IMG/VR virus record: IMGVR_UViG_3300008120_000296 | Location: 1-24,384 of that record | DNA length: 24,384 nucleotides | Source of the DNA: a virus | Reading direction: 5' to 3' (one strand) | Shown: positions 1,109 through 7,775 of the stretch, piece by piece | Layout: every line of letters begins with the position of its first letter | How positions within the stretch are numbered: position 1 is the stretch's first letter | Position numbers and translations under genes: made by a program | The notes under the pieces: model-generated | What the model saw: only the letters and a program-made list of their open reading frames with translations | Database searches by the model: none | Told to the model about the DNA's origin: nothing

Positions 1109-1309
1109 TTATCTTCGTCCTCTTTGTTGTGCTTGTAATTTTTGCTGTTCATTTACACTCTCAATATGTTGAGATAATAACATTATATACAATTCACGTT
1201 CAAAGGGTATCATATTCTCTAACGTTTCCAAGTCATATTTATGATGTTGCATTAGAGAAAAGTTTGTTTGATAGTAGGTAGCTAGGCTTTCACCTCCTAT
1301 CAGAAGCCG
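1109..1309 (-). CDS. -1 frame extension of gp26 (GT-like tail assembly chaperone part; gp51 by position)
   Basis: This frame continues gp26 after a -1 slip at T_TTT_TTC (1309-1315). It reads RLLIGGESLATYYQTNFSL, then from an internal ATG (1250-1252) MQHHKYDLETLENMIPFERE and on to a TAA at 1109-1111. The slipped product would be about 312 residues: 246 of gp26 plus 66 from this frame. The part before the internal ATG looks like real protein (GGES, YYQTNF), and the ATG has no Shine-Dalgarno, which argues for frameshift access over separate initiation. As an independent ORF it would be 47 aa. The content is helical, with acidic and aromatic residues and a Gln/Arg-rich end. T4 places gene 51 after gene 26, but T4 gp51 is much longer, so the gp51 label is positional only. 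The lambda G/GT analogy is inference. Confidence 0.65.
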   Translation of the reverse strand, partial: RLLIGGESLATYYQTNFSLMQHHKYDLETLENMIPFERELYIMLLSQHIESVNEQQKLQAQQRGRR

Positions 1310-1315
1310 AAAAAA
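1285..1315 (-). promoter_or_regulatory. Programmed -1 ribosomal frameshift signal in gp26
   Basis: On the minus strand the gp26 frame reads AGT TTT TTC GGC TTC TGA, so 1309-1315 is a canonical X_XXY_YYZ heptamer (T_TTT_TTC) six bases before the stop codon at 1300-1302. Directly after it, GGCTT (1304-1308) can pair with AAGCC (1285-1289) around a 14-base loop. That loop holds the stop codon and AGGAGGTGA (1290-1298), which is perfectly complementary to the usual bacterial 16S rRNA 3' end. No start codon stands at initiation distance from this SD-like site. The heptamer and the open -1 frame are seen directly; the stimulatory role of hairpin and SD-like site is inferred. Confidence 0.65.
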
Positions 1316-2046
1316 CTTTGCAGACCTTCCATAGTAATCTCATCTCTACATCCGCATTTCTGACACTTCCACTCTACTTTGTGTTTCAACTTAGGCATCA
1401 ACTCAAAGAACTTTGTCAGTTTCAAGTATTGATCTTGATTCAAGTTTTCAATGAACTCTAACAACTCTTTCTTTGTGTAATCTTCTTTCTTGAATACATT
1501 TTCTTTATCAAAGATGTACTCAATGCTGTTGATGATTGCATCTGTCGCAAGATCCATTTGATGCTTGTCTTCAATATTCGAACCAGCATCTATCGCCATA
1601 TTGACGTTAGGATATTTTAATTTAATACCAATGCCAGTTTCTTCGTCAAGAAGAATCTTATCTGTGTGGTTTTCTGTTTTTATAACTTCAATTTCCAACA
1701 AGTTTAATTTTCCATCAGTAATGCCGTCACACTCTTGAACGTCAGAATTGTATCCAGTTGGATGACGCAATTTCAAATCAATTGTTTCTCCAATTGACTT
1801 TGCTCTCAATCTCATAAAGAAATATTCTAAGTCGAATGTTGGAATTTTGCTTGTGTCGATTTCATCAATAGCACAGTTATTGACAATTTGTTTAATTGCT
1901 GTCAATACTGATTTTTGATCCTGTGATTCCATAGCAAGTAAAAGAATTTTTTGTTCTTTCACTAAGAATGGTCTGTATTTGATACTTGCACCTGTTGATG
2001 GTAAAGTCAATTCAAATATTGGGTTATTAATTTTTGGTAAAGCCAT
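1300..2046 (-). CDS. 26: Baseplate hub assembly / tail assembly protein, T4 gp26 family
   Basis: A 248-aa protein of the T4 gp26 baseplate family (T4_baseplate, PF12322 type; T4 gp26 is 208 aa). Seen directly: an N-terminal beta stretch opening ALPKINNPIFELTLPSTG, the family-like segment YRPFLVKEQKILLLAME at about 24-40, helices through the middle, and a C-terminal Cys cluster WKCQKCGC with Cys228, Cys231 and Cys233, a likely partial zinc-binding knuckle. It ends MEGLQSFFGF. In T4, gp26 is needed for hub assembly; a chaperone role rather than a structural one is plausible because of the frameshift site in its last codons. A GGAG Shine-Dalgarno lies 7-8 bases before the ATG. It is followed by the -1 frame ORF and the holin-like gene. 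Family assignment is good, exact function less so. Confidence 0.8.
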   Translation of the reverse strand: MALPKINNPIFELTLPSTGASIKYRPFLVKEQKILLLAMESQDQKSVLTAIKQIVNNCAIDEIDTSKIPTFDLEYFFMRLRAKSIGETIDLKLRHPTGYNSDVQECDGITDGKLNLLEIEVIKTENHTDKILLDEETGIGIKLKYPNVNMAIDAGSNIEDKHQMDLATDAIINSIEYIFDKENVFKKEDYTKKELLEFIENLNQDQYLKLTKFFELMPKLKHKVEWKCQKCGCRDEITMEGLQSFFGF

Positions 2047-6818: not shown

Positions 6819-7775
6819 ATGACTTTAAAACTTAAATTTTCAGAGTACGTAGACTTAAAAGACTACAAAGCGACTCAGCTTATAGAGAAGCAAATACTCT
6901 ATAACAATGGCGCAAAGTATGGACAGATTGTGTTCCTTGCTGGTGGTGCTGGTTCGGGCAAAGGATTTGCCGTTCAGCATTTTATGCAAGGGTCTGAATT
7001 TAAAATACGTGACGTTGACGAATTGAAAATTGCATTTCAAAAGTTAGATGCGCTTGGTAAATTTACGACTCAAGACTTGCTTGATAAGTACGGCGACAAA
7101 ATTTCTGAGAAAGATAAAGACCTTATTCAAAGAGAATTGACTGACAAGAATTTAAAGATGGGTCAATTGAATTTGAAAACTCCAACGCATGTTTACATTC
7201 TACACGTTCTCATCCGTGCGACTGACGTAAAAAACAAGACGTTAGACTTGATGCTTGCTGGCGCTGAAAAAGGGCAATTGCCAAATCTTATTTTTGACAG
7301 CACATTCAAAGAAGTTGAAGACATGACAGATGTTCTACCAAAACTGTTTGCCGCTGGATATGAGCCAAAGAACATTCACGTATCGTGGGTTCTGACTAAT
7401 TATCAGATTGCAATCAAGAATAACAAATCAAGGGCAAGAGTTGTGCCAGAAGATATTTTGCTTGCGACTCACGCAGGTGCGGCACAGACTGTATATAACT
7501 TAGTAACAAAAGCTATGCCGCCAACTGTTCAAGGTGGGATTTATGTCATTCTAAATAATCCAGAGAATACAATTTTCATTGTTGATCCGCAAACAGGTAA
7601 AGCATACAAAGATAAAAAAGGCAATCCTGTTATCAAAGACTTCAAGTATTTGGTACTTAAGGAACCAGGAAAACCTGCTAAGAAAGAACTTGATGTGAAA
7701 AAACAATTACTCACTTGGATTAAAGACAATGTTCCTCCAGGCGCAGTAGACACATCAGAGTTAGACAAGCTATGA
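6819..7775 (+). CDS. P-loop kinase, zeta-toxin/AAA_33-like, within the baseplate operon
   Basis: A 318-aa predicted ATP-dependent small-molecule or polynucleotide kinase. Walker A is GGAGSGKG at 42-49, preceded by the strand QIVFLA. Asp160 in the hydrophobic strand PNLIFDST is a Walker-B-type residue. KNIHVSWVLTNYQIAIKNNK and SRARVVPEDILLATH (184-218) fit the segment of zeta-toxin/AAA_33 kinases that follows the V-x-W strand, with its basic lid and a His. The C-terminal 80 residues are a beta-rich extension (IYVILNNPENTIFIVDPQTG) ending in a Lys-rich tail. The N-terminal 30 residues hold KLKFSEYVDLKDYK, similar to the starts of two nearby small genes. The gene overlaps the next by ATGA, so it belongs to the structural transcription unit. 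The substrate is unknown; a toxin role is not supported, as no antitoxin is seen. Confidence 0.75.
   Translation: MTLKLKFSEYVDLKDYKATQLIEKQILYNNGAKYGQIVFLAGGAGSGKGFAVQHFMQGSEFKIRDVDELKIAFQKLDALGKFTTQDLLDKYGDKISEKDKDLIQRELTDKNLKMGQLNLKTPTHVYILHVLIRATDVKNKTLDLMLAGAEKGQLPNLIFDSTFKEVEDMTDVLPKLFAAGYEPKNIHVSWVLTNYQIAIKNNKSRARVVPEDILLATHAGAAQTVYNLVTKAMPPTVQGGIYVILNNPENTIFIVDPQTGKAYKDKKGNPVIKDFKYLVLKEPGKPAKKELDVKKQLLTWIKDNVPPGAVDTSELDKL

Follow-up and report, generated by a model that had tools for sequence, protein, structure and literature searches.

The window analysed here is 24,384 nucleotides of viral DNA (IMG/VR record IMGVR_UViG_3300008120_000296, positions 1 to 24,384). Near one of its ends, a gene resembling T4 gene 26 is followed by a tiny gp51-like ORF in the -1 frame, which raises the question of how so small a reading frame is translated. 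The first-pass annotation had proposed a programmed -1 frameshift joining the two, with gp26 and its extension as the T4-like counterpart of the lambda G/GT tail assembly chaperones. By its sequence, the gene at 2046..1300 is gp26 with certainty, and gp26 and the following -1 frame very probably constitute a single gene from which a -1 slip would give two products. The features of the locus are:

1300..2046, minus strand: gp26-like gene of 248 aa, predicted short form of the chaperone (TAC-N / G-like); PF12322 E=1.3e-58, phrog_150 E=9.8e-63.
1309..1315, minus strand: putative slippery heptamer T_TTT_TTC, of the X_XXY_YYZ type, in the phase of gp26, from its sequence and its conservation in relatives.
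1112..1309, minus strand: -1 extension of 66 codons (TAC-C / T-like domain) with stop TAA at 1111-1109; phrog_634 E=4.2e-25.
1250..1252, minus strand: first ATG in the -1 frame, with no Shine-Dalgarno (SD) sequence 5' of it; probably not an initiation site.

The 3' end of gp26 reads CTG CAA AGT TTT TTC GGC TTC TGA TAG on the minus strand, where the stop codon TGA (1302-1300) is directly followed by TAG and exactly six bases (GGCTTC) separate the heptamer from the TGA. The -1 frame contains no stop from 1339 to the TAA at 1111-1109, and the next gene starts at ATG 1108. After the heptamer, the earliest ATG, GTG or TTG in the -1 frame is codon 19, counting from 0. What the first-pass annotation had read from the letters – the heptamer in the gp26 frame (1315-1309) six bases before the stop, a -1 frame open across that stop for 66 codons (1309-1112), and an internal ATG (1252-1250) lacking an SD sequence – was recovered in each detail. 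The family of the extension is named "gp51, baseplate hub assembly catalyst" in the records of relatives. The -1 peptide also matches the C-terminus of the gp26 family itself (phrog_150, positions 231-279 of 282, E=5.3e-7), an early indication that the two are parts of one protein elsewhere.

In the proposed mechanism, most ribosomes would end at the TGA and release gp26, the short form. A minority would slip back by one base on U_UUU_UUC, with the two Phe tRNAs re-pairing on UUU UUU. Now in the -1 frame, these ribosomes would not meet the stop and would append the 66-residue domain, so that the long form, gp26-gp51, would have about 312 residues. Both the slippage itself and the ratio of short to long product are inferred.

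Taken alone, the heptamer carries little information, because TTTTTTC occurs 12 times in the window against 12.06 expected; its conservation is what counts. We gathered relatives by similarity to gp26 and added named phage records, some of them reached via the extension peptide; the heptamer was not a selection criterion. In all 169 surveyed gp26 genes, T_TTT_TTN lies in phase and precedes the stop by 2-4 codons (TTTTTTC in 166, TTTTTTT in 3), and the -1 extension is open; on contigs that reach far enough, this extension measures 55-69 residues. The survey covers cyanophages, phages of Methylophilales, Ochrobactrum, Rhizobium, Sinorhizobium, Pseudomonas, Acidovorax, Stenotrophomonas, Desulfovibrio and Cronobacter, KVP40-type Vibrio phages and Aeh1-type Aeromonas phages; the heptamer and the extension are also present in five further viruses (four named phages and one single-cell virus). 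The first-pass annotation had named stops in the -1 frame between the heptamer and the internal ATG as an observation that would contradict a frameshift, and such stops were found in 0/169 relatives.

As a check, the annotation had also suggested testing whether the -1 frame ahead of the internal ATG is conserved with a synonymous bias. For this analysis, we used 31 relatives with a pairwise difference of >3% and the region from the gp26 stop to the first shared ATG. The pN/pS ratio in the -1 frame is 0.20-0.25 and those in the other two frames are 1.32 and 1.12, so that purifying selection in this interval acts only in the -1 frame. The value of 0.20, against 1.1-1.3 in the other frames, indicates that in this clade the stretch is translated in the -1 frame ahead of any start codon. 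That the open -1 frame and the heptamer reflect coincidence or a sequencing error has a negligible probability: although TTTTTTC itself occurs at chance frequency, its conservation at 169/169 loci and the selection on the -1 frame rule this out. The heptamer has to be read with one caveat, namely that two Phe residues (FF) encoded in both frames would alone force most of it; yet this requires -1 translation upstream of any start.

Alternatively, ribosomes could re-initiate or initiate internally past the gp26 stop and so make the extension as a small protein of its own, gp51; many cyanophage records annotate it in this way, from an internal ATG. We consider this very unlikely. In about half of the relatives (89/161), codon 3 after the heptamer is indeed an ATG, which often shares bases with the gp26 stop (TGATG), and coupled re-initiation could add product at this site. 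The window clade, however, reads TGATAG and has no start before codon 19, and the annotated gp51 starts vary between relatives. In 157/161 complete cases, the SD sequence is missing before the first -1 start, and the conserved protein begins at the FF, ahead of every start codon. Ahead of the heptamer, too, the open part of the -1 frame lacks a start codon in 160/161 complete cases. For the window clade, separate initiation of the extension was rejected, since there is no start for 19 codons and selection is seen upstream of the first one.

Slightly less probable still is a trans-frame protein that arises through RNA polymerase slippage, with one U added at the T6 run, rather than through ribosome slippage. 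The T6 run itself, and the longer runs of some relatives such as the T8 in Melnitz, would allow for this. However, six T are generally short for polymerase slippage, and the T run keeps a constant ribosomal phase, the next base being C in 166/169 loci. Moreover, an SD-like element 5' of the run would act on ribosomes only.

Stimulators of -1 frameshifting are expected as an SD sequence 10-14 nt before the slip site or as an RNA structure 5-9 nt after it. The SD-like element is one of two candidate stimulators that flank the heptamer:

1325..1330, minus strand: SD-like GGAAGG, located 5' of the heptamer at a distance of 9 nt; candidate stimulator of the dnaX type.
1269..1302, minus strand: predicted stem-loop TGATAG.AGGT...ACCT.CTATCA, beginning 6 nt after the heptamer; possible stimulator.

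The anti-SD duplex energy before the heptamer averages -6.9 kcal/mol in 77 non-redundant relatives, compared with -1.0 elsewhere in gp26. Shuffling of synonymous codons leads to an expected energy of -5.5 kcal/mol (Wilcoxon p=6e-6, the sequences being related), which suggests that the E-G peptide forces much, but not all, of the SD-like element. The stem-loop of the window has an MFE of -11.8 kcal/mol with a modest z of only -1.29. Among the 77 relatives, the 70 nt 3' of the heptamer have a mean z of about -1.6 (se 0.18), in contrast to -0.07 to -0.75 elsewhere. RNAalifold on ten relatives gave a common fold of only -2.6 kcal/mol, nothing convincing, and an Rfam search for RNA structure returned no match. 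In the same region, a near-perfect SD-like sequence, AGGAGGTG (1298-1291), which the first-pass annotation had overlooked, lies directly 3' of the gp26 stop and about 40 nt from ATG 1252-1250. It has no start codon at a usable distance and overlaps conserved GGE(S) codons as well as one arm of the predicted stem.

A variant of the junction is found in the Ackermannviridae. Their gp26 ends (L090 and L189-L192), together with L091, are followed by a clearly homologous -1 extension (FHLIFE.DL..YF...PWHLDL) but have no T6 heptamer. Instead, the junction reads RTTTTCAT just before the stop, and no start codon lies near it in the Salmonella, Dickeya and Serratia phages. We tentatively propose, giving it rather less than an even chance, that the slip depends on a dnaX-like three-part signal (SD-like element, T_TTT_TTC and stem) kept across very diverged phages, and that the Ackermannviridae make the same extension in the absence of the heptamer, either by slippage of one Phe tRNA on TTTTC or in some other way.

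In T4, gene 26 (208 aa) and gene 51 (249 aa) lie on opposite strands. When 14 trans-frame products were combined into a profile, its match to T4 gp51 ran through the junction (profile positions 23-287), and its match to T4 gp26 reached as far as the FF junction (11-244). Comparison of the gp26 profile with the gp51 profile gave E=1.9e-9, and the extension aligns with gp51 residues 200-244 at 36% identity (hhalign, E=7.7e-8). The Pfam family T4_baseplate covers both gp26 and gp51, with the gp51 match at 1-201. Judged by these alignments, T4-type phages naturally encode the fusion of gp26 with its extension in a single frame, as gp51, which also argues against a separate small gp51. Since T4 gp51 is homologous end to end to gp26 plus the extension, the tiny gp51 ORF corresponds to the C-terminal domain of the predicted gp26-gp51 frameshift product. 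The frameshift would thereby account for the small ORF, as had been suggested at the outset.

The gp26 genes of 11 two-gene T4-type phages contain no heptamer (0/11), their FF codons being TTC TTT or changed, and no homologous -1 extension was detected in these phages, where the -1 frame closes at once or continues without a match to the extension. In a phylogenetic tree, T4-type gp26 and gp51 group together, apart from the frameshifting genes (support 92/86); the tree is unrooted and has long branches, and the grouping is only suggestive. The homology of gp26 and gp51, the absent heptamer and the tree fit a gene duplication after which two genes took the place of the slip. T4-type phages have probably swapped the slip for the gene pair 26 (short) and 51 (long).

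By analogy with lambda G/GT, the probable task of the short form is to coat the tape measure protein, and that of the added domain to recruit subunits of the tail tube or hub. An AlphaFold2 model of gp26 (pLDDT 87.7) matches other gp26-like proteins. The HK97 chaperone gp13 (PDB 2ob9) is among its top fold matches at rank 5, but this match is weak and not significant (E=0.96, prob 0.66), with a small aligned core (3.5 A over 61 columns). A search for solved homologues by sequence gave PDB matches at chance level only. T4 gp26 and gp51 have been named as chaperones of hub assembly, and the final particle lacks gp51 (PMC3004832). Chaperones of the G/GT type bind the tape measure protein, stay out of the virion and are encoded between the tail tube and tape measure genes. 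The gene order at the locus is tail tube (phrog_45), gp26, extension, a holin-like gene and the gene for an M23 protein of about 1,400 aa, which may be the tape measure or a hub protein; it matches tape-measure families via its M23 peptidase domain only. From the model matches, the listing of T4 gp26 and gp51 as chaperones and the neighbouring genes, we consider a G/GT-like role of gp26 and its extension likely by inference. The proposed equivalence with G/GT is supported further by the absence of -1 stops in 169/169 relatives, by the selection on the -1 frame and by gp51 as the single-frame version.

Three neighbouring ORFs have features of their own. The holin-like gene (1108-611) encodes 165 aa with a three-helix match (PF11351 E=2e-6; phrog_3427) and lies between the chaperone gene and the putative tape measure gene. 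The latter (603-1) is cut by the end of the window; in relatives it encodes about 1,400 aa (L037:6455-10651) with an embedded M23 peptidase domain. Among the baseplate genes, the ORF at 6819-7775 contains a P-loop (GGAGSGKG) and has a kinase-like look.

The abstract by Vladimirov, Gautam and Davidson reportedly states that several groups of T4-like phages have kept the frameshift, while T4 uses genes 26 and 51. As described in two later papers (PMC10885494; PMC12846349), that study (Virology 2022, 566:9-15) identified the tail assembly chaperones of T4-like phages. One of the two (PMC12846349) refers to it for slip signals of the polyT type in the short-form genes of T4-like phages, and the other (PMC10885494) for short and long fusion genes, which some T4-like phages carry separately. 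Possible additions of our analysis to this work, in the form in which it is cited there, are the upstream SD-like element, the downstream folding tendency and the Ackermannviridae variant without the heptamer. An earlier paper (PMC5009743, 2016) had described G/T frameshifting as conserved "except T4"; this view is also affected, as most relatives appear to shift and T4 itself has two genes. Cyanophage gp51 was reported to have about 20% of the usual length and gp51 to be missing in Aeh1 (PMC3037559, 2010). A 233,234-bp Aeromonas phage contig (L187), probably Aeh1, contains both the -1 extension and the heptamer, so that Aeh1 appears to have the gp51 domain. A widespread record annotation would also be corrected: the small "gp51" ORF in cyanophage and related records would be a C-terminal domain and not a gene, which would explain why cyanophage "gp51" looks truncated by about 80%.

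Several known systems resemble the one proposed here. Lambda G/GT slips on GGGAAAG, a heptamer different from that of the window, and no sequence homology between the two systems emerged here; unlike in lambda, the extension is separated from the putative tape measure gene by a holin-like gene. Escherichia coli dnaX has an SD-like element about 10 nt before its heptamer and a stem-loop a few bases after it, similar to the candidate stimulators found here, but it uses another heptamer and encodes an unrelated protein. T4 gp26 is the homologue of the short form and T4 gp51 that of the full fusion; T4 has two genes on opposite strands and no slip site, whereas the window has one gene with a putative slip site. 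The system of the T4-like chaperones (Virology 2022), as later papers present it, has the same genes and the same logic, the short form being gp26 and the long form gp26 plus the C-terminal domain. The uncultured clade of the window adds a further case, in which no start codon lies near the gp26 stop, removing the re-initiation alternative. Since chaperone frameshifting in T4-like phages was published in 2022, the window represents a well-supported further case of a known kind, and the value of our analysis lies in the confirmation on a large set and in the candidate stimulators.
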